The notes beneath the pieces were generated by a model. It had not been told where the DNA came from, ran no database searches, and worked only from the letters and a program-made list of their open reading frames with translations. A stretch of 64,000 nucleotides of DNA from Limnohabitans sp. G3-2. GTDB taxonomy: Bacteria > Pseudomonadota > Gammaproteobacteria > Burkholderiales > Burkholderiaceae_C. Both the position numbers and the translations under genes were made by a program. Each line of letters opens with the position of its first letter. Positions within the stretch are counted from its first letter, which is position 1. Of this stretch, positions 4,666-13,522 are shown piece after piece. The stretch spans positions 62,001 through 126,000 of the forward strand of contig NZ_NESG01000008.1 in NCBI RefSeq assembly GCF_002778275.1, written 5' to 3'.

Positions 4666-5175
4666 TCAGCGCGGTGAATTGTTTTTGGGATGAGCCCCAT
4701 GGGACCCATGTGGAGCGCCATGACCGGCATCACCATCCACCCGCAACATGCCCTCAAAGGAAGCGAACTTCTTCAAAGTGTCAGCGGGCAGTCGGCTTTC
4801 GGCCGTTTGCAGCTTTTTCGACAATGCAGTCGCAACATCGTTGGGCATGCCGGTTTGCACCAAAGCGTCTGCTTGTCGCAGGCCATCCCCGGCACAAACC
4901 ACGATCACCCAATGAGCGTGCCGTTTTTGCAGCAACGCACGCCCACCGCGTTCGCCTTGCAACCAACCTGCCAATGCCCAGTCGCCCTCTACAACCACAG
5001 GCGCGACCTGCAAAGGCGACTTGGGTTGGTCAAACTGCTTCTTCATGACATGCACGATGGTCTGCATGTCTTTTGCCGGACTGACCTTGGAAGAGTGATG
5101 ATCCCCAGCAACCTGATGGCCACTGGCAGATGCCAACCAAGCAGCCAAAAAGGCGGAAAAGAAAATTTTTGTCAT
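4666..5175 (-). CDS. Copper uptake system-associated protein
   Basis: This small secreted protein of 169 residues has a short signal peptide (MTKIFFSAFLAAWLASASG) followed by a His-rich stretch (HQVAGDHHSSK). The globular part resembles proteins annotated as 'copper uptake system-associated'. Shared segments include VMKKQFDQP, VVVEGDWALAGW, GGRALLQKRHAHWVIVVCAGDGL and KKFASFEGMLRVD. The C-terminus is again His-rich (HGAPHGSHGAH), suggesting metal contact. It is the last gene of the copper operon, 20 nt after the TonB receptor. Its molecular role is unknown; a periplasmic accessory role for the receptor is the natural inference. Confidence 0.75.
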   Translation of the reverse strand: MTKIFFSAFLAAWLASASGHQVAGDHHSSKVSPAKDMQTIVHVMKKQFDQPKSPLQVAPVVVEGDWALAGWLQGERGGRALLQKRHAHWVIVVCAGDGLRQADALVQTGMPNDVATALSKKLQTAESRLPADTLKKFASFEGMLRVDGDAGHGAPHGSHGAHPKNNSPR

Positions 5176-5195
5176 GGTACTTTTTCCTTTTAGCG

Positions 5196-7073
5196 TCAGA
5201 AACTGGCTTTCACACCCACTTGCAAAGAACGTCCCGGCATGGGGTAGCCCTCGCGAAACGTGTAGGTTTTATCCAAAAGATTCTCGATCGCCGCAAAGAC
5301 TTCGCCACGCTGTCCGAGTTGCGGGACCTTGTATCCCAAGCGCAGATTGGCCACAGTGAATCCATTGACCTGAACGGTATTGGTGCTCACCGTACGCGCT
5401 TGACCCAAAACCGTCATGCGGGTCTGGTGTTGTGCATCGGCACTGGCGCGCCACGGGCCTTCTTGCCAATTGATGCCCACACTGAGGCTGTCTTGCGGTG
5501 CATAAGGTAAGTCTGACTTGCTGCTGTTCAGGTGTGTCCATCCCGCAAACATCTGCCAAGACTTGCCCATGGATTGCGCCCAGGTGAGCTCTGTCCCTGT
5601 CACGTCATAGGTGCCCAAGTGGACAAAACCAGGGGCCGATACTGCAGGAGGGAAAGCAAAAATGTAACGGTCCTTGACACGGTCTTTGAACAGGGCCAAG
5701 TCCACCGAGGTATCGCTCGAGGGTTTCCAGCTCACACCCAACTCCTGATGGTCAAGCCGTTCTGCGCCCAAGGATTTCCAAGTATTTCCGAGGGGAGCCA
5801 TGAGGTGCGACAACACAGCGGCATCCAGTCCTGGGTAGTTGACCCCTTTGGACACCTGAACGCGCAATGCCAAACGTTCCCCCTGCGCCAGTACCAAGCC
5901 CGCTTGATGCGCGGACTCTGACTTCAGGACATTGTGGCTGTAGTGCCGCACACCCACGGACGGCGTGGCCGACCAGCCGCCAGTCAAGTCCAACTTGTGA
6001 CTGACCGCCACAAAGGGAGAGCTCACGCGCAAATCAGCGGCCACGAACCGGGCGGTAGGCACATCACCACCGATCTTGTCGACGTCCAGGCCTGCCTGTA
6101 CCTGCCCACCTTGCCAAGGCTGCAGGCTTTCACGCCAACGCAAGCCCGTTGTTTTGAAGTTGGACTTCAACCCAGGATTTTGTTCCCCATAGCCCTCGGT
6201 GCTGTACACCTTGAAACTGCCTTGAACTTTGTCATGTTGATGTGCGACAGTGAATGCCAACAAATCGCCACGGGTGTTGAAAGTCTGTCCCTTGTTGGCC
6301 TGTGTATCCTGATGGCCAGGGTCGGTCGCGGTATTGCTGCTGTTCATGGCCAGCAGGCGAATCGACCACTGGCGGTCAATCCTGTAACCCAATTGGCCCA
6401 TGACATTGTTCAAGCGACCTTTGGCGTCCGGCCGATGGCCATCGGAAGCAGCATGCCCCTGAGCCAACGCGAAGTCCCAGTCGCCCTGTCGGCCGCTGAC
6501 ATCCAACTGCTCAGCCACGGTACCAAAGCTCCCGCCACGCACACTCACCTCACCCGAGACGCCATCTGCGGCCCGTGCCTTTTTGGGCTCGAGGGCAATG
6601 GCCCCAAACGTGTTCCCAAATTCGTGCAGCTGCGGACCTTTGATGACATTCAATCGGGCCATGCCGTTGAGCGGCAAGAGGTCCAGCAATGGATGGTTCC
6701 AGATGCCCATGTAAAAAGGGACGCCATCGATGTAGGTCTTGATTTCACTGCCGGGGCGGCTGGAGCCCATGCCACGGATATAAACCGCACCACCTTCTTC
6801 ACCACCAAAGGAGCCCACTGGATTGAAGCGAGAAATGCTGACGCCCGGTGTACGGCGCAATGCGGCGGCGGCATCGATCGCATTCAGGTCTTCGATCTGA
6901 CGCGATGTCACTGTCGTGCGGAAACCTGCCATGTCATCGGCACTGTTGCTGTCGATGACGGCGGGCGCAATGATGAGCACATCATTTTGCGGCGATTGCG
7001 CCCATACCGTTGCCGCAGGCAGTAAGCCCCACAGGGCGATTGCAACGGGTGAAAATTTGAATTGTTTTTGCAT
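5196..7073 (-). CDS. TonB-dependent receptor, probable copper importer
   Basis: The 625-residue receptor has a signal peptide starting MQKQFKFSPVAIALWGLL. A TonB plug follows (VTSRQIEDLNAIDAAAALRR, VYIRGMGSSRPG, LNVIKGPQLHEFG), then a barrel that ends with LQVGVKASF. The ATG at 7073 is preferred over the upstream in-frame start at 7124 because the signal peptide begins there. It lies between a DUF2946 ORF (96-nt leader) and the copper-uptake-associated gene (20-nt gap). That context, with PCuAC and MbnP/MbnH upstream, points to copper or a copper complex as cargo. The leader between 7074 and 7169 contains a small CGCC/GGCG hairpin. Confidence 0.85.
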   Translation of the reverse strand: MQKQFKFSPVAIALWGLLPAATVWAQSPQNDVLIIAPAVIDSNSADDMAGFRTTVTSRQIEDLNAIDAAAALRRTPGVSISRFNPVGSFGGEEGGAVYIRGMGSSRPGSEIKTYIDGVPFYMGIWNHPLLDLLPLNGMARLNVIKGPQLHEFGNTFGAIALEPKKARAADGVSGEVSVRGGSFGTVAEQLDVSGRQGDWDFALAQGHAASDGHRPDAKGRLNNVMGQLGYRIDRQWSIRLLAMNSSNTATDPGHQDTQANKGQTFNTRGDLLAFTVAHQHDKVQGSFKVYSTEGYGEQNPGLKSNFKTTGLRWRESLQPWQGGQVQAGLDVDKIGGDVPTARFVAADLRVSSPFVAVSHKLDLTGGWSATPSVGVRHYSHNVLKSESAHQAGLVLAQGERLALRVQVSKGVNYPGLDAAVLSHLMAPLGNTWKSLGAERLDHQELGVSWKPSSDTSVDLALFKDRVKDRYIFAFPPAVSAPGFVHLGTYDVTGTELTWAQSMGKSWQMFAGWTHLNSSKSDLPYAPQDSLSVGINWQEGPWRASADAQHQTRMTVLGQARTVSTNTVQVNGFTVANLRLGYKVPQLGQRGEVFAAIENLLDKTYTFREGYPMPGRSLQVGVKASF

Positions 7074-7169
7074 GGTCTGATGAGATCTGTGCGCGCAGGC
7101 TCTGCCGTACACGCGAAAAAGCACCGCCCAAAAAAATATATCGAGCGGAGGAAATGCGCCTTACGGCGT

Positions 7170-7538
7170 TCAGATCAGATCAGGCGGTCCGCGAGAAGGC
7201 AGCGGCGGCGCGGTACGAGCCAACAACAGCGCCTCAGGCAAGGCTTGCACGATGAAAGCGCGTGCATCGTGCACATGCGCCAAAGCAGCCGCCGTGGGTG
7301 GCGGCAATGCGGGTGTGGCGTGAGCACACAGCGGGCAGTCCATGCTGCTGCTCAAGGCAGTGTTTTCACCCTCGCCTTGCACCACCACTTTCATGACGCC
7401 CATGCTGGAACACACGACGTCCATGGTTTTGGGCTGCAGCGTGGCGGCCAACACCGAAACACCCACAAACAGCATGTACCAAACCAGCAGGAGGCGACTC
7501 AGTGAGCGAAAGAAGGGGTGTGATCGGTACATACCCAT
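7170..7538 (-). CDS. DUF2946 protein, CruR-like putative copper-sensing upstream ORF
   Basis: The product has 122 residues. It has one hydrophobic N-terminal segment (LLLVWYMLFVGVSVLAATL), a Cys in DVVCSSMG (C43) and a CPLC motif (C68, C71), and then a Pro/Ala-rich tail. DUF2946 proteins have this layout. In Bordetella pertussis a DUF2946 ORF (CruR) upstream of a TonB transporter gene was reported to repress it post-transcriptionally in response to copper through its CxxC. Here the ORF starts 3 nt after mbnH and precedes the TonB receptor by 96 nt, the same layout. Homology and position are seen; the regulatory role is inferred. Confidence 0.75.
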   Translation of the reverse strand: MGMYRSHPFFRSLSRLLLVWYMLFVGVSVLAATLQPKTMDVVCSSMGVMKVVVQGEGENTALSSSMDCPLCAHATPALPPPTAAALAHVHDARAFIVQALPEALLLARTAPPLPSRGPPDLI

Positions 7539-7541
7539 GCC

Positions 7542-8690
7542 TCAACGACTGGCTGCCCACGGATTCGCGTGGCGAGGGTTTTGAACAAACGTGTGGTCGG
7601 TCAAGGTGTTCAAGAAAGCGACCAGGTCGCTGACTTCTTGCTCGCTGACCTCGAAGCCCCCGATCAATGAACTGCGCAAGGGGCTGGGCCCGTTGGTCGT
7701 GCCGCCTGCGCGGCCAGCCTGCGCGTAGTGGGCGCGGATGACTTGGTCGAGCGTGGCCAAAGAGCCGTCGTGCATGTAGGGCGCAGTCAGCGCAATGTTG
7801 CGCAGACTGGGCGTGCGGAACTTGCCCATGTCATCGGCGTCGCCCGTGAACTCGCTGATGCCCGGGTTGTCTGCGGGGTAGGCACCCCGGCCATCCAGGT
7901 TGTGCAAGCCTGTGTTGTGAAAGCCGCGCTCGGCCAGAGGCAGCTTGCTGTGGCGGATGTTGTCGGTGAAGGTGAAGCTGCCGTGGCAGTGGTAGCACTC
8001 CATCTTTTCGCCAAAGAACAGGCTTTCTCCGCGCTTGGCCGCTGCTGAGATGGCTTTGGGCTGGCCGCCGTATTTGTACCGGTCATACGGGCTGTCAAAC
8101 GAGAGCAGGCTGCGCTGAAAACTGGCCAAGGCTTTGGTCAGCGTGCCCAGCGAATACAAAGCCTCGCTGCCTTTTGCCGCTTCGACTGGAAAGGCTTTGA
8201 CAAACAAGTCGCGGTAACGCGCATCGGCTTGCAGGCGTGCAAACAGTTCTTTCTCTCGCCCTGCCATGCCCATCTCGACCGGGTGCTCGCCAAACAGCGG
8301 AATGAGCGCCTGCACCTCCAAAGCCGTGAGGTTGGGGTTGGCCCAAGTCAGCACAGGCAGATAGGCCACATTGCCCAGCGCCATGGCGCTGCGTTGACCC
8401 GCTTGCCCGGTCACGCCTTTGGCCACGGCCAGTCCATCGGTGAAGGCTTTGTCTTGGTGGTGGCAGGTGGCGCACGACATGCTGCTGTCCGCCGACAGGC
8501 GTTGGTCGTAAAACAGGTGCCGCCCCAGCTCGACCTTGGCCGCACTCATCGGGTTGTCTGCGGGCACCACAGGGCGTGGCACCCAGGCAGGCAGGTCCCA
8601 ATGAAATACGTCTGTGGAACTGCCCGTGAGCATGGCCCAACCGGCCAAAGCCAGCAGGCAGGTGCTCAGGGTTTTGCGCAAGGGGTTCAT
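7542..8690 (-). CDS. mbnH: Di-heme enzyme of the MauG/CcpA superfamily, MbnH-like
   Basis: The 382-residue exported protein has two c-type heme sites, CATCHH and CYHCHG, and the conserved segment YMHDGSLATLDQVI. This is the architecture of bacterial di-heme cytochrome c peroxidase/MauG enzymes. The partner gene immediately upstream (21 nt) encodes an MbnP-type protein, the hallmark of the 'metallo-mystery pair'. In Methylosinus, MbnH oxidises a Trp of MbnP to kynurenine, creating a copper-binding form. By analogy this enzyme should modify the neighbouring MbnP in the periplasm. It could alternatively be an ordinary peroxidase, but the pairing argues against that. Confidence 0.88.
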   Translation of the reverse strand: MNPLRKTLSTCLLALAGWAMLTGSSTDVFHWDLPAWVPRPVVPADNPMSAAKVELGRHLFYDQRLSADSSMSCATCHHQDKAFTDGLAVAKGVTGQAGQRSAMALGNVAYLPVLTWANPNLTALEVQALIPLFGEHPVEMGMAGREKELFARLQADARYRDLFVKAFPVEAAKGSEALYSLGTLTKALASFQRSLLSFDSPYDRYKYGGQPKAISAAAKRGESLFFGEKMECYHCHGSFTFTDNIRHSKLPLAERGFHNTGLHNLDGRGAYPADNPGISEFTGDADDMGKFRTPSLRNIALTAPYMHDGSLATLDQVIRAHYAQAGRAGGTTNGPSPLRSSLIGGFEVSEQEVSDLVAFLNTLTDHTFVQNPRHANPWAASR

Positions 8691-8711
8691 GGCCGAGCTC
8701 TGGGGTGCAGA

Positions 8712-9596
8712 TCAGCGTTTGGACAAAAGGCGTTGAGGGCCTGCAGCGGCCACGCCGTCATAGGCCAGGCCCAGCGCCTGCATCACAGGTGGGCAGTCGC
8801 CGTCTTTGGAAAAGCTCATGCAGCCGGGCGATGTGCCTTTGGCGTTGACGTCCACATTGGCTTGTGCCAGCACCGCGCCCATGTCGGCCACCACGGTGTT
8901 TTTGCGCAGGTCAAAGCCATCGAAGCGCACCGTCAGGCGGTTGGGGTTTTGGCAAGCGCTGGGGGCCTGGGTTTTGCTCTCGCCCGCGCATGCCGTGCTG
9001 CCCAGGTGCACCGAGTAACGGGTGACCGGGCCCATAGCGTTGGCTGCAGCGGGTTTGTCTGTGCTGATGCCACTGCTGGCGGTGTCGAATTTGATGAACT
9101 TGTAGCCGCCTTGCCAGTTCCAGAACATGGCTGTGGAGTTGAGCGGCGCGGGCGCGACCGTGGGGTCTTGGTGGTTTTGTGCAAAAGGCACGCCCACAGT
9201 GAGTTCCACCCCGGTGTACTCGCCCGCTGGCACTTGGCCGCGCACGCTGGTGTTGGTGGCCTCTGTGCCATTGCGGCAAGGGCCTGCGCCGTTTTCAAAG
9301 TCCAGCAGCGCCACCGATTGCTGTTGCCACACGCCGTCTTGTGCGAGTTGCACAGGCACGGTGCTGCCGTCTTGGCGCACCAGCTTGACTTCGCTCACGT
9401 ACATGCGAAAGTCGCTGGGCGTGATGGTCGAGCGCGTGCTGCCCACGCCTTCGTAACGCTGGCCGCAGGCAAAGGGCTGGCCGTTGATTTGGGCGGCAAA
9501 CTTCAGCTCAACAGCTTGGGAAGTGGGTGGGCTGGGCAAGGTGCTGCAAGCGCTCACGGCCAAGGCCAGTGCCGTCAGGGTGAAAAAATATTTCAT
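8712..9596 (-). CDS. mbnP: MbnP-like copper-binding lipoprotein (metallo-mystery pair four-Cys protein)
   Basis: The 294-residue lipoprotein has a signal peptide and the lipobox AVSAC (Cys17). The family Cys pattern is spread along the chain: FACGQRY, GPCRNG, TACAGES...SACQN and GCMSFSKDGDCPP. A Trp-rich FWNWQGGYKFIKFD segment lies mid-protein. In characterised MbnP a Trp is converted to kynurenine by MbnH and contributes to copper binding. I chose the ATG at 9596 because it begins the signal peptide; the longer frame to 9719 runs through the upstream gene. It lies 19 nt after the PCuAC gene and 21 nt before mbnH, so all three are probably co-transcribed. Confidence 0.88.
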   Translation of the reverse strand: MKYFFTLTALALAVSACSTLPSPPTSQAVELKFAAQINGQPFACGQRYEGVGSTRSTITPSDFRMYVSEVKLVRQDGSTVPVQLAQDGVWQQQSVALLDFENGAGPCRNGTEATNTSVRGQVPAGEYTGVELTVGVPFAQNHQDPTVAPAPLNSTAMFWNWQGGYKFIKFDTASSGISTDKPAAANAMGPVTRYSVHLGSTACAGESKTQAPSACQNPNRLTVRFDGFDLRKNTVVADMGAVLAQANVDVNAKGTSPGCMSFSKDGDCPPVMQALGLAYDGVAAAGPQRLLSKR

Positions 9597-9615
9597 CGTG
9601 TCTTCCAGTTGAAAA

Positions 9616-10161
9616 TCAATGCTGATGCGCAGATGCACCTGCACGCGGTGTTTGCACCCAGACGTTGACACGCCGGGTGCCTGCTTTTTCAAAAACCAAC
9701 TCCAGATCGAAGCGGTCACCGTCTTTGAGGGGTTGGGCCATGTCCAGCAGCATCAGGTGGTGCGTGCCCGCGCCGCCGTGACGCAAGGACACTTCGGTTT
9801 GCGCGGGCAACTCCAAGGCGGGCACTTGGCGCATGCGCATGACCTGGCCGTCCATCTGCATCTGGTGGATTTCTACCCGTGCCGCCACAGCGGTGCGGGC
9901 CGACAGCAGGCGGTCAGGCGTTTTGCCTTTGTTGCGGATGGATTTGAAATACACCGCCCCTGTGGTCGTGCCTGCCAGGCTGGGCGTGGCGTAGGGGTGG
10001 TCTATCACCACATCGCCTTGGCGAAAACCGTGCGCGTGGGCAGAGCCTGTGCCCAACAGCGCCAGGGCCACCACGCCCATGAACAAGCCGCCTGCCACAA
10101 AGCCCAAGCCAAAGCCAGTTTTTTGGGCGCTCTGCCAGAACCTAAAAATCACTTGTTGCAT
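9616..10161 (-). CDS. PCu(A)C-family periplasmic copper chaperone
   Basis: The 181-residue protein has an N-terminal hydrophobic segment (FGLGFVAGGLFMGVVALALL) ending at AHAHG. A DUF461/PCuAC domain follows. The copper ligands of the family's H-M...M...H-M motif are visible as VEIHQMQMDG, VMRMRQVP and THHLMLLDM. The tail ends in His residues (ASAHQH). PCuAC proteins carry Cu(I) in the periplasm, classically to cytochrome oxidase CuA sites. The ATG at 10161 is used; an in-frame start at 10212 would lie inside the upstream regulator gene. The gene follows the Crp/Fnr gene by 10 nt and precedes mbnP, which suggests it serves copper uptake here. Confidence 0.88.
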   Translation of the reverse strand: MQQVIFRFWQSAQKTGFGLGFVAGGLFMGVVALALLGTGSAHAHGFRQGDVVIDHPYATPSLAGTTTGAVYFKSIRNKGKTPDRLLSARTAVAARVEIHQMQMDGQVMRMRQVPALELPAQTEVSLRHGGAGTHHLMLLDMAQPLKDGDRFDLELVFEKAGTRRVNVWVQTPRAGASAHQH

Positions 10162-10171
10162 ACCAGACCTT

Positions 10172-10759
10172 TCAGGCCGCCATGGCAAAGGGCTCAGCCA
10201 CGGCCCACACACTGGGCACGCGCAGGCGGGGTTGCTTGCGTTCGGGCAGCAAGGTGTTGAGTTCGCGGCACACCGTCTCGAAGGTGGAGTCGACCACGCG
10301 GGCCATTTCTTTGAGTGTGGGCAGTTCTTTGCGCTGCACGGTCAACACACGGCCATCGGCCTGCTTGCCCAACACGGTCAACAAATACGCGAGGCGCTGG
10401 ACGATGGGGCCTGTGCGCAAACGGTGCATGTCGCAGGTCTGCCGCTGCTGCTGCAAGAAGCCCTGCGTCATGGTGGTGTAGCGGTCCAGGTCTTGGCCAG
10501 CCGCAATCGGCTTTGTTTGCGCGGCCACCAAGGCCACAGCTGTGAAGGCATAGGGTTCGGCGCACAAAGACTCCACGCCGATCAGGTCGCCGGCTTGGGC
10601 CAGTTGCACCAAAATTTGGCCATCTTGGCCCTGGCGCTCCAGCTTGAAAACACCTTGGGTCACCCGCCACACAGGGCCCACACCGCCTGCGGCCAACAAG
10701 CTTTGGCCACGGTTCACATGGATGGGCTCACCCACCGGAATTTGATTGAAAAATTGCAC
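10172..10759 (-). CDS. Crp/Fnr-family transcriptional regulator
   Basis: The 195-residue protein has an N-terminal cyclic-nucleotide-binding-like beta-roll (GEPIHVNRGQSLLAAG, GVFKLERQGQDGQILVQL, AGDLIGVESLCAEP). A C-terminal winged helix has the recognition region LKEMARVVDSTFETVCREL. There is no N-terminal Fnr-type Cys cluster, so an iron-sulfur oxygen sensor is unlikely. I chose the GTG start at 10759 because AGGAG lies about 7 nt upstream. The frame runs further up to 11023, but that part has no family similarity. It is the first gene after the second DUF2946 ORF and probably controls the copper operon. The effector is unknown. Confidence 0.8.
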   Translation of the reverse strand: MQFFNQIPVGEPIHVNRGQSLLAAGGVGPVWRVTQGVFKLERQGQDGQILVQLAQAGDLIGVESLCAEPYAFTAVALVAAQTKPIAAGQDLDRYTTMTQGFLQQQRQTCDMHRLRTGPIVQRLAYLLTVLGKQADGRVLTVQRKELPTLKEMARVVDSTFETVCRELNTLLPERKQPRLRVPSVWAVAEPFAMAA

Positions 10760-10818
10760 ACGCTGCTCCTGACTGAATGGGCCAGTGCACCTGCATGAAA
10801 GCAGGCGCCTGGCGAACA

Positions 10819-10842
10819 GCAGGCGGGCATGAGCCCGGCCTG
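10819..10842 (-). promoter_or_regulatory. GC-rich hairpin in the leader between DUF2946 ORF and regulator gene
   Basis: A stem of GCAGGC/GCCTGC plus GGGC/GCCC around a 4-nt ATGA loop lies 13 nt after the stop codon of the second DUF2946 ORF and about 60 nt before the Crp/Fnr start. It lacks a U-tract, so it is not a standard intrinsic terminator. It could take part in attenuation or Rho-dependent control of the downstream genes. This is inference from position only. Confidence 0.3.
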
Positions 10843-10854
10843 CCACGGCTGACT

Positions 10855-11253
10855 TCAGGCGTGGGCAGGCGGGGCGCGGGAGTGGACCGTCCAGCGGGGG
10901 ACGGCTTGAGGAATGTCTTGATCCAACTGCGCCAACAAGGGTGGCGCTTGTGGCAAAGCCTGCCACGCCAAGGGGGCGGGCGGCGGTGCCATGCGGTCGC
11001 TGGCCAACACGCACAAGGCGCAATGGTCGAGCATGGTCGCACCCGGCACAGAACCGTCATCGCCCTGTGCATTGCCCGGTTGTTTGAGCGCCGTCTGTGG
11101 TGTGCCCTCGGTGGTGCACACCGTCATCCAAGGCACTGCGCTGCCCTGGCTCCAGGCCCGTGCACGCGAGACCGTGGGGGCCAAAGCCGCCAGCAGCATC
11201 GCGCACAGCAGCCACAGGCTGAGCCTGCGCAGTTGGGCAGAAGTCCAGGTCAT
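10855..11253 (-). CDS. DUF2946 protein, second CruR-like putative copper-sensing upstream ORF
   Basis: The 132-residue protein has an N-terminal membrane or signal segment (LSLWLLCAMLLAALAPTV), a Cys in WMTVCTTEG (C46), the CALC motif (C78, C81) and a Pro-rich tail. This is the same plan as the other two DUF2946 proteins here. The ATG at 11253 is chosen over a TTG five codons upstream; neither has a strong Shine-Dalgarno sequence. It lies 26 nt after a PCuAC gene and leaves a 95-nt leader before the Crp/Fnr gene. That spacing almost equals the 96 nt between the third copy and the TonB receptor. Its role as a leader-peptide copper sensor is inferred. Confidence 0.7.
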   Translation of the reverse strand: MTWTSAQLRRLSLWLLCAMLLAALAPTVSRARAWSQGSAVPWMTVCTTEGTPQTALKQPGNAQGDDGSVPGATMLDHCALCVLASDRMAPPPAPLAWQALPQAPPLLAQLDQDIPQAVPRWTVHSRAPPAHA

Positions 11254-11279
11254 GGAGGGGTCAGGCAAAAGTCAAGAGA

Positions 11280-11756
11280 TCAGTGCTTGTGCGCCGAATG
11301 GCCATCGCCATGCTTCATGGCGGGTGCGCCGGCCATGCGGGCAGCGGCCTTGATTTCGATGTTCTGGCGCTTGCCATCCTTGCCTTCGACCACCAGGGTC
11401 ACCGGTACGGTGTCACCGTCTTTGACTTGGCCTTTGAGGTCCATCAGCATGACGTGGTAACCGCCGGGCTTGAGGTCCACCGCTTTGCCAGCAGGCAAGG
11501 CCAGGCTGGGCACCGCGCGCATTTTCATGACGCCGCCGTCCATGGCCATTTCGTGCACCTCCACCACACCCGCCACAGGCGACTGGGCCGAGACCAATTT
11601 GGCGTCTTGGCTGGACTGCAATTGCATGAAAGCACCTGTGGCCTTTTGCTGCGCCACGGTGGCACGCACCCAGGCGTCTTTGACGGTGACTTGGGCTTGG
11701 GCCTGGCTGAACAGGGCCGACATCAGGACGGCAACAGAGACAACAACGCGTTTCAT
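11280..11756 (-). CDS. PCu(A)C-family periplasmic copper chaperone
   Basis: The 158-residue product has a clean signal peptide (MKRVVVSVAVLMSALFSQAQAQ) and a complete PCuAC domain. The copper-binding pattern is VVEVHEMAMDGGVMKMRAV followed by GGYHVMLMDL. The C-terminal tail is His/Met-rich (MKHGDGHSAHKH), a likely extra metal site. It is the standard-length member of the two PCuAC proteins in the locus. It follows a DUF2946 ORF after a 133-nt gap and precedes another DUF2946 ORF by 26 nt. Delivery of periplasmic copper is known for the family; which acceptor it serves is unknown. Confidence 0.92.
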   Translation of the reverse strand: MKRVVVSVAVLMSALFSQAQAQVTVKDAWVRATVAQQKATGAFMQLQSSQDAKLVSAQSPVAGVVEVHEMAMDGGVMKMRAVPSLALPAGKAVDLKPGGYHVMLMDLKGQVKDGDTVPVTLVVEGKDGKRQNIEIKAAARMAGAPAMKHGDGHSAHKH

Positions 11757-11889
11757 GGCGAACTCCAGTTAATAAAAAGACACGAGGGGAAAGGGTTTGG
11801 CGGCGCTTGAAAGCCAGCGCACTGGACCACGGGCAGGAAGATCGGCTCATGCAGGCACCCCGCACTGGGCCGTCAAACAGCTGCCGTGA

Positions 11890-12255
11890 TCAAGAAAAAG
11901 AGGGGGGAGCGCGGGCCTGCCAGGGCAGCCCGATGAGCGAAGCCAGCCGGGCCTGCTCCAGAGGACGCAGCGCATGAGACAGCCCAACATGGACTGGCGC
12001 TGAAACCGACAGCACCGGGGGCGCTGCCACCGGCAAACACAAGGGGCAGTGCAGGCCTTGGTGGCTGCTTTGCGCCTCATCGCCATCGGCATCGAGCTGC
12101 AGCAGCTTGACGCTGCCCGCTGTGGTGCACACCAGTTGCACACCCTCGGGGTTGACCAACGGCGAAGCCACGGCCACCCCCACAAACAACGCAAACCACA
12201 CCAGCACGAAGCGGGTGAGAAGGGGGGCATTGCGCAGGGATTGCAGACTGAACAT
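11890..12255 (-). CDS. DUF2946 protein, first CruR-like putative copper-sensing upstream ORF
   Basis: The 121-residue protein has a hydrophobic N-terminal segment (FVLVWFALFVGVAVASPLV), a Cys in LVCTTAG (C43), a CPLC motif (C70, C73) and a hydrophobic/Pro-rich tail. The ATG at 12255 matches the usual N-terminus of the family; another in-frame ATG lies at 12306. It is the first minus-strand gene of the copper locus and precedes the signal-peptide PCuAC gene by 133 nt. As with the other two copies, a leader role for the downstream gene is suggested by comparison with Bordetella CruR but is not proven. Confidence 0.72.
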   Translation of the reverse strand: MFSLQSLRNAPLLTRFVLVWFALFVGVAVASPLVNPEGVQLVCTTAGSVKLLQLDADGDEAQSSHQGLHCPLCLPVAAPPVLSVSAPVHVGLSHALRPLEQARLASLIGLPWQARAPPSFS

Positions 12256-12318
12256 GGCGGCAATTATGGCATCGAAGCTTGGGGCCTCTGGACTCACCTG
12301 GTCCATGCACCCGTCTCT

Positions 12319-12741
12319 TCAGAGGGTTGTTTCGGCTTTTTCGTCTGAAATTTGATCGTTTGCCCACTGTGCGCAACGATCGGCCGCACGGGACATGCCT
12401 TGGGCATCCACCGGGAAAAAACCGGGAATGTCGTACTTGTCGAAATGCGCATACGAGGAAAACGCCATGGCCCAATCGGCAAACTGCCGATCGGTGATGG
12501 GGCCTCGCGCCAACAGTTCGACGTTGTGGTGCCGCTCATCGCGCTGGAGGCTTCTCCACAAAGTATCGATGGAGCCACTGGGGCCCTCGATGCACTGAAC
12601 AAAAATTTCCTCGGTGTAGAGCAAATGCCCCGTGATGCCCAAGCTCAGGTTGCGTTTGCGGCACTGCACCAGCAAATTGAACAGGTGCAGACTGCCCAGC
12701 TTGTGGGTGGCTTGTGAGCGGTAAACAAGTCGCTCCAACAT
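12319..12741 (-). CDS. Single-domain BLUF blue-light photoreceptor
   Basis: The 140-residue protein consists of a BLUF domain and a short tail. The flavin-switch residues are present: Tyr7 in RLVYRSQA, Asn31 in KRNLSLGITGHLLY and Gln49 in FVQCIEG. The Trp/Met pair of strand 5 is also present (FADWAMAF, W90 and M92). BLUF domains bind FAD and change hydrogen bonding around the Gln upon blue light. No EAL or other output domain is fused, so it must act through a partner protein. The start has GGAG 6 nt upstream. It is divergent from the GST gene across a 130-bp promoter region. Confidence 0.92.
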   Translation of the reverse strand: MLERLVYRSQATHKLGSLHLFNLLVQCRKRNLSLGITGHLLYTEEIFVQCIEGPSGSIDTLWRSLQRDERHHNVELLARGPITDRQFADWAMAFSSYAHFDKYDIPGFFPVDAQGMSRAADRCAQWANDQISDEKAETTL

Positions 12742-12871
12742 AAGGGCTCCGAATAGAGGGTGGCGATATTTTGGAGGGGCGTCTTGATACGGACCTTACA
12801 GGCATATTGGTGACTCATCGGTTCAGCGACATAGGCTAACCTGCGTTCTACCTGCTTAACTGGAGACTCCC

Positions 12872-13522
12872 ATGCTCACACTCTGCGGCTTCGCAGCCAG
12901 CAATTACCACAACAAAGTCAAATTCGCCTTGCTCGAAAAGGGCGTGCCATTTGAAGAGGAACTGGCTTGGGTCGGTGCCACCGACGCTGCGGCCAGCCCC
13001 TTGGGCAAAGTGCCTTACCTCAAAACACCCGATGGCGCGATGTGCGAATCGGCTGTGATGCTGGAATACATCGAGCAAAAGTACCCGCAAAACCCCCTGA
13101 TCCCTGCCGATCCATTTGCCGCCGCCAAGGTGCGCGAGCTGGCTCTGTTTCTGGACCTGCACCTGGAGCTGGTCGCTCGCAACCTCTACCCCGAAGCCTT
13201 TTTCGGCGGCAAAGTGAGCGACTCGGTCAAAGAAAAAGTCGGTGCGCAGCTTGAGAAAAACGTCGCGGCCTTTGCCAAGCTCGCCAAGTTCGCCCCCTTT
13301 GTGGCGGGCAACAGCCTGACGCTGGCCGATTGCGCCGCCGTCACGCATTTGCCTCTGGTCTCGGGCGCCACCAAGCTGGTTTACGGGAAAGACTTCCTCG
13401 CCGATCTGCCAGCACGCGACTACCTGAAAATGATGGGCGAGCGCCCCCACATGCAAAAGGTCAACGCCGAGCGCAAGGCCAATATGGAGCTGATGTTGGC
13501 CCGCATGAAAGCCAAAAGCTGA
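12872..13522 (+). CDS. Glutathione S-transferase family protein
   Basis: The 216-residue protein has the two-domain GST layout. The N-terminal thioredoxin-like half (MLTLCGFAASNYHNKVKFALLEKGVPFEEE) includes the cis-Pro glutathione motif GKVPYLKT and the ESAVMLEYIEQKYP helix. The C-terminal half is all-alpha and carries the N-capping segment SLTLADCAAVTHLPL. Such enzymes conjugate glutathione to electrophiles or act as thiol-dependent reductases; the substrate is not readable. The ATG at 12872 is preceded by GGAG at 7 nt. It is transcribed alone, divergent from the BLUF gene. Confidence 0.9.
   Translation: MLTLCGFAASNYHNKVKFALLEKGVPFEEELAWVGATDAAASPLGKVPYLKTPDGAMCESAVMLEYIEQKYPQNPLIPADPFAAAKVRELALFLDLHLELVARNLYPEAFFGGKVSDSVKEKVGAQLEKNVAAFAKLAKFAPFVAGNSLTLADCAAVTHLPLVSGATKLVYGKDFLADLPARDYLKMMGERPHMQKVNAERKANMELMLARMKAKS

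Follow-up and report, generated by a model that had tools for sequence, protein, structure and literature searches.

Three CruR-type leader peptides within one Limnohabitans copper gene run, proposed to act in series

In a window of 64,000 nucleotides (nt) from the freshwater bacterium Limnohabitans sp. G3-2 (contig NZ_NESG01000008.1, positions 62,001 to 126,000 of the forward strand), a minus-strand run of copper genes extending from 12255 to 4666 contains three short DUF2946 open reading frames (ORFs), here called uC, uB and uA. The order of the run is uC, PCuAC1, uB, a Crp/Fnr-like regulator gene, PCuAC2, MbnP, MbnH, uA, a TonB receptor gene and a copper-uptake-associated gene (Table 1). 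The best fit to this arrangement is that the three ORFs would be CruR-type arrest-peptide leaders acting in series on one mRNA, a reading to which we assign a probability of roughly 0.55. An earlier note on this DNA had singled out the three ORFs, and re-reading the sequence placed them on the minus strand and bore out their existence, stop codons, upstream cysteine and CxxC motifs. It likewise bore out the distances: 96 nt from uA to the TonB receptor gene, 95 nt from uB to the Crp/Fnr-like gene and 133 nt from uC to the PCuAC gene.

All three leaders score above the Pfam DUF2946 cut-off of 23.7 bits, in agreement with the CruR-like identity that the note had proposed; it had missed a further feature, an R(A/G)PP tail. 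Each ORF has a hydrophobic N-terminus, as judged by eye, a CxxC motif with an additional upstream cysteine, and a C-terminus made of R(A/G)PP, exactly three residues and the stop codon, with 44 (uA), 44 (uB) and 41 (uC) residues between the two motifs. CruR (BP2923), the leader of the cruR-bfrG/crtA-bp2921 operon of Bordetella pertussis, requires its CxxC for the copper response and its RAPP for operon expression; 45 residues lie between them and three follow, a spacing conserved to one or two residues, and the gap to the next gene is 162 nt (PMC9426467). The likeness covers DUF2946, CxxC, a RAPP-type motif followed by three last residues, a spacing near 44 residues (only 41 in uC) and a long downstream gap, and in the case of uA also the TonB receptor that follows. 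RAPP and RGPP sequences are reported to arrest ribosomes, with arrest by CruR shown in vitro, RGPP forming the most stable and strongest arrest core, and PCuAC and TonB genes occurring among the genes downstream of such leaders (PMC12992588). This arrest core is common to uA, uB and uC, with RGPP in uA. By anatomy, all three class as CruR-type leaders.

This anatomy recurs in the Limnohabitans copies of the leaders, which had to contain both motifs to be counted, as 137 of 139 profile matches did. The spacing is 44 residues in 20 uA and 15 uB copies and 41–42 in 19 uC copies (42–47 in 53 leaders of other genera), and R(A/G)PP lies three or four residues before the C-terminal end in 54 of 54. 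The RGPP core is found in 20/20 uA, 1/15 uB and 0/19 uC copies; uA and uC copies were assigned by this very motif, and a tree of 110 leaders yields identical sets. Ratios of non-synonymous to synonymous polymorphism (pN/pS) are 0.34 for uA, 0.53 for uB and 0.44 for uC, and together with the steady spacing they speak against a chance resemblance. Ordinary small exported copper-binding proteins devoid of cis regulation would likewise have a hydrophobic N-terminus and a metal-binding motif, and could sit inside an operon like any other gene. We regard this explanation as very improbable, given the near-constant R(A/G)PP at the C-terminus, the constant spacing, the long gaps behind the leaders and the published cis action of CruR (PMC9426467).

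Those gaps set the leaders apart from their neighbours. While 133, 95 and 96 nt follow uC, uB and uA, the remaining intergenic distances between PCuAC1 and the NF033672 gene are 26, 10, 19, 21, 9 and 20 nt. Across the fetched Limnohabitans loci, whose genes were called with our own script and no standard gene finder, gaps of at least 60 nt occur between leader and gene in 55 of 56 cases versus 2 of 47 between one copper gene and another; the corresponding counts in other genera are 66 of 68 and, for the control, 10 of 43.

A promoter-like element is confined to the head of the run. TGCCATAAT ends 7 nt before the uC ATG, and among the window's three leaders only uC has such an element. The strict pattern TGNNATAAT-N4..9-ATG gave 29 matches in 1,753,496 nt, both strands of the fetched loci, all 29 at DUF2946 starts: 19/19 uC copies, 0/15 uB, 5/20 uA and 5 other leaders. 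A -10 element so near the ATG predicts that transcription begins at the start codon and yields a leaderless mRNA, in this case for uC. Four of the five uA copies with the strict pattern are second copies or lie behind a non-copper gene; the remaining one is a third-position copy (locus L044), 90 nt behind MbnH. With a relaxed pattern, ATAAT-N5..10-ATG, the element precedes 26 of 27 Limnohabitans leaders that are not behind a copper gene (non-internal) and 1 of 30 that are (internal), and the rate among other ATG genes is 13 of 720. In other genera it is present at 6/44 and 11/15 non-internal leaders in two sets and at 0/13 internal ones. The relaxed pattern was fixed after the upstream sequences of the held-out loci were known, so that these loci are no blind test. 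Across whole genomes the -10 pattern is not special to DUF2946 genes: with N7, the strict form has 118 matches among 60 Limnohabitans genomes (5 in the window's genome) versus 6 for the reversed pattern. A leaderless-type pattern is also seen about 145 nt upstream of the rho gene (G000 contig 1, 90134–90152).

Shine-Dalgarno-like sites precede 0 of 27 non-internal and 7 of 30 internal Limnohabitans leaders, compared with 368 of 720 other genes; CruR, too, is reported to be weakly translated, which agrees with this scarcity. The published CruR transcript starts 45 bp before the start codon (PMC9426467), unlike the predicted leaderless head at uC.

These promoter data bear on the possibility that the leaders do not act in series, uB and uA having internal promoters of their own and each leader controlling a short transcript of its own, like the single leader of the published operon. 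The -10 element at the third-position uA and at uA copies elsewhere indicates that such leaders can have promoters, and the leaders behave like cassettes. Set against this, the element occurs in none of the 15 uB copies and is missing from 15 of the 20 uA copies, and internal leaders begin 3–91 nt past the preceding gene, making separate transcripts unlikely in our judgement.

In the serial reading, the start codon of uC would also be the transcription start. Under copper scarcity, a ribosome translating any of the leaders would stall at R(A/G)PP and keep Rho off, letting RNA polymerase continue into the next segment: a chaperone gene behind uC; the regulator, a second chaperone and MbnP and MbnH behind uB; the TonB receptor behind uA. 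Copper would bind the CxxC newly emerged from the ribosome and release the stall, upon which Rho would terminate transcription in the 95–133-nt gap past that leader; rho is present in the window's genome (685.6 bits). Each leader would be a checkpoint, and since more distal genes would need read-through at more checkpoints, repression by copper should be strongest for the importer and weakest for the first chaperone. For uA, uB and uC, the sensing of copper, the arrest and the termination by Rho are projected here from B. pertussis CruR, and so are the three independent copper-responsive checkpoints of the earlier note. That note had also placed the genes in one locus and transcript: the layout fits one transcript, with one leader before the Crp/Fnr-like gene, and from it we infer both the single transcript and the graded order of copper repression.

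A mechanism of opposite sign is known from CutF, the leader of cutFOG in Rhodobacter capsulatus, which is likewise an exported, DUF2946-like, cis-acting leader with a proline-rich C-terminus; it differs in carrying CxxxC, in switching expression on with copper and in acting through a stem-loop over the ribosome-binding site (PMC9973294, PMC8456105). Applied to our locus, copper would cause stalling and thereby open a stem-loop over the ribosome-binding site of the next gene. The two kinds of leader belong to the same broad family (PMC9973294), and hairpins do follow leader stop codons (mean z -1.08 in 108 sequences; -2.17, -1.41 and -0.31 for the window's uA, uB and uC). We nevertheless consider such a switch improbable: the window's leaders carry CxxC, the downstream genes serve uptake and chaperoning and include no copper oxidase, and the ribosome-binding region is less paired behind DUF2946 leaders (0.495, n=98) than behind other genes (0.558, n=208). 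With no excess pairing, a CutF-type stem-loop covering the ribosome-binding site of the following gene was rejected as a candidate. The hairpin past the uB stop is conserved, yet 0 of 10 pairs changed on both sides. A search for intrinsic terminators found 6, with 10.3 expected in shuffles. In two relatives, a very stable hairpin lies directly past the uC stop (L044:9957, z -6.4; L068:6555, z -4.4).

Several observations weigh against serial action of CruR-type leaders. The lack of a -10 element at uB and uA still leaves room for other internal promoters, and a sigma-70 scan of 5000–13000 returned no promoter-like site, missing uC's own -10 as well and thereby showing the low sensitivity of such scans. 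The uC spacing of 41 residues is four below that of CruR and outside the published range of one or two; uB, devoid of a Shine-Dalgarno sequence, may be poorly translated, and it is missing from one relative (L071), where it is dispensable. The 3' ends of DUF2946 genes have an excess of C over G (0.131 versus 0.006; smallest at uC, with 54 C to 47 G), but this was rejected as a sign of Rho sites, because proline codons explain it and third positions give -0.03 versus +0.06.

The layout is shared within the genus. uC, uB and a uA occur together on one strand in 10 of 23 fetched Limnohabitans loci; eight of the ten three-leader genomes fall in the 60-genome sample, which is a lower bound, as fetching was restricted to genomes with Pfam pairs. 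A shorter arrangement, uC-PCuAC1-uA, is found at four loci. In the 110-leader tree, built by a quick method on 115 columns and with many forks open, the 20 uA, 14 uB and 19 uC rows form separate supported sets, each tied to one type of downstream gene, with uA and uC inside one larger set and uB elsewhere. Since the sets are separate and each has its own downstream gene type, uA, uB and uC are best read as old paralogues. A recent tandem triplication, which the note's word 'triplication' might suggest, is rejected, as uB is about 25% identical to both uA and uC and the tree separates all three.

The uA leader has in turn been retained in front of changing receptors. Among 17 uA leaders mean identity is 86%, while their downstream receptors form four groups only 22–26% identical to one another, between which the leaders remain 82–87% identical; the uA-associated receptors that were checked pass the Pfam TonB models. 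The leader thus behaves as a cassette, kept in place as the receptor is exchanged. The window's genome also holds a fourth leader-like ORF (L055:5459-5815, G000 contig 1), which has no CxxC, is His-rich, ends in RAPPVLI and sits 90-odd nt before a 676-residue ORF resembling a TonB receptor; it is perhaps a sensor of another metal.

The assignment of the regulator draws on a profile comparison with the PDB (Table 1), its scores being below the cut-offs of Pfam HTH_Crp_2 (15 bits, cut-off 27) and NCBIfam (20 bits, cut-off 274); relatives in two loci (L074, L088) pass PF00027. Its AlphaFold model has a predicted local distance difference test score (pLDDT) of 59 and a predicted template modelling score (pTM) of 0.49, and its relatives occupy 15 loci, all from Limnohabitans or Comamonadaceae. 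A Crp/Fnr-type palindrome, TTGAY-N4-RTCAA with at most one mismatch, is present in 7 of 44 leaders that have the -10 element, at -37.5 to -40.5 relative to the start codon; it occurs in 4 of 85 leaders that lack the element, at scattered places, with an expected background of 0.013 per 85 positions. All seven palindrome-bearing leaders, two of them near-copies, lie in loci encoding this regulator. A Crp/Fnr box was not found at the window's own uC promoter (5 mismatches), and the binder of the palindrome could be a general Fnr instead of the locus regulator. A wider scheme would combine a leaderless head with CruR checkpoints that follow it in series and have no promoters, so that copper would trim the transcript one segment at a time. 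The leaders would be exchangeable cassettes, and one would gate a Crp/Fnr-like regulator that itself activates promoters headed by such leaders, linking transcriptional and translational control in a closed loop. We put this forward tentatively and doubt that all of it holds.

Beyond the genus, a profile of 45 leaders matched 91 of 110 genomes (109 genera) in a survey of the family, with at least two leaders on one strand within 6 kb in 12. Pfam alone gave clusters in 4 of the 110, counted by eye, and the profile includes sequences from 6 of the 12. Three or more clustered leaders were seen in 3 genomes, the window's, G071 and G115, the third leader of G115 being without a canonical CxxC. Clustered leaders need not share an operon: the two leaders of G110 are separated by a PCuAC gene on the opposite strand. 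The order-wide survey matched 43 of 150 genomes, with clusters, by eye, in four (G000, G654, G589 and G256). Two of the three leaders of G654 end in AAPP, not RAPP; at locus L124, from another Burkholderiales family, SAAPP replaces RAPP in two of three DUF2946 ORFs, which are possibly arrest-deficient. A wider class search matched 6 of 232 genomes, 3 of them outside the family, and found no cluster except the window's, with a one-family profile that may miss distant leaders.

The earlier note had called for a search for DUF2946-TonB/PCuAC/Crp synteny, and this layout does recur in Limnohabitans, with internal leaders and leader-Crp pairs recurring in other genera. There, 13 internal leaders lie right behind a copper gene, plus one in L125, and a leader stands immediately 5' of a Crp/Fnr-like gene in 7 fetched loci plus L113; for single-leader loci in other genera, the 30 best-scoring entries of a list were taken, not a random sample. 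DUF2946 ORFs are described as first in the operon 'in most cases', 'overwhelmingly' and, in the Fig. 7 legend, 'systematically', the Fig. 7b legend noting several transcription units at one locus, and the main text of that paper makes no mention of Crp/Fnr (PMC9426467). Unlike CruR, a single leader in first position, the Limnohabitans run has three leaders, two of them internal; RAPP/RGPP arrest peptides, too, were surveyed as single leaders (PMC12992588). DUF2946-like ORFs ahead of NosR regulators have been reported with the work on CutF (PMC9973294, PMC8456105). The literature searched, which lay mostly outside subscription journals, describes neither an operon with several DUF2946 leaders nor such a leader ahead of a Crp/Fnr gene.

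If serial action holds, copper would shut the operon stepwise rather than once at its start, and genes on one transcript would get different copper thresholds. Arrest-peptide leaders would then be checkpoints that can be placed inside operons, not merely on-off switches at their start; a nascent-chain metal sensor would be coupled to a transcriptional regulator, and the exchange of receptors downstream of a single leader would mark that leader as a portable regulatory part.

Table 1 Features of the copper gene run, in order of transcription.
Feature	Position	Strand	Basis or remark
Extended -10 and start codon of uC, TGCCATAAT-N7-ATG, predicted leaderless promoter	12253..12271	-	pattern search
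Leader uC, 121 aa, CPLC, RAPP-SFS, heads run before PCuAC1	11890..12255	-	DUF2946 33.9 bits (on ORF from 12306 start)
Gap uC/PCuAC1, 133 nt; C/T-rich stretch ahead of PCuAC1 start	11757..11889	-	
PCuAC1, periplasmic copper chaperone	11280..11756	-	PF04314 133 bits
Leader uB, 132 aa, CALC, RAPP-AHA, internal, 26 nt 3' of PCuAC1	10855..11253	-	DUF2946 55.8 bits
Hairpin, 12 nt past uB stop	10819..10843	-	retained in most of 13 relatives, without compensatory changes
Gap uB/Crp/Fnr-like gene, 95 nt	10760..10854	-	
Crp/Fnr-like regulator, 195 aa, GTG start, GGAG upstream	10172..10759	-	PDB profile 2zcw_A, E 3.8e-5
PCuAC2	9616..10161	-	PF04314 110 bits
MbnP family copper-binding protein	8712..9596	-	TIGR04052 298.6 bits, cut-off 140
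MbnH family di-heme enzyme	7542..8690	-	TIGR04039 461.7 bits, cut-off 362.85
Leader uA, 120 aa from ATG 7532, CPLC, RGPP-DLI, internal, 9 nt 3' of MbnH	7170..7532	-	DUF2946 32.0 bits
Gap uA/TonB receptor, 96 nt; small hairpin right past uA stop	7074..7169	-	
TonB-dependent receptor, 625 aa	5196..7073	-	PF00593 79.7 bits, PF07715 61.8 bits
Copper uptake system-associated protein	4666..5175	-	NF033672 136.8 bits, cut-off 50

The likely starts are ATG 12255 for uC, chosen because the conserved -10 precedes it, ATG 11253 for uB and, for uA, ATG 7532 or the alternative ATG 7538. Counted from its promoter, uC may be the first gene, even with a gene for a BLUF blue-light sensor located upstream; uB and uA occupy internal positions. 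This BLUF gene (12319–12741, 95 bits) is on the same strand as uC and just upstream of it, and BLUF-like ORFs occupy the equivalent place in L037–L041, L045 and L046 and are absent from L042, L047, L052 and L053.

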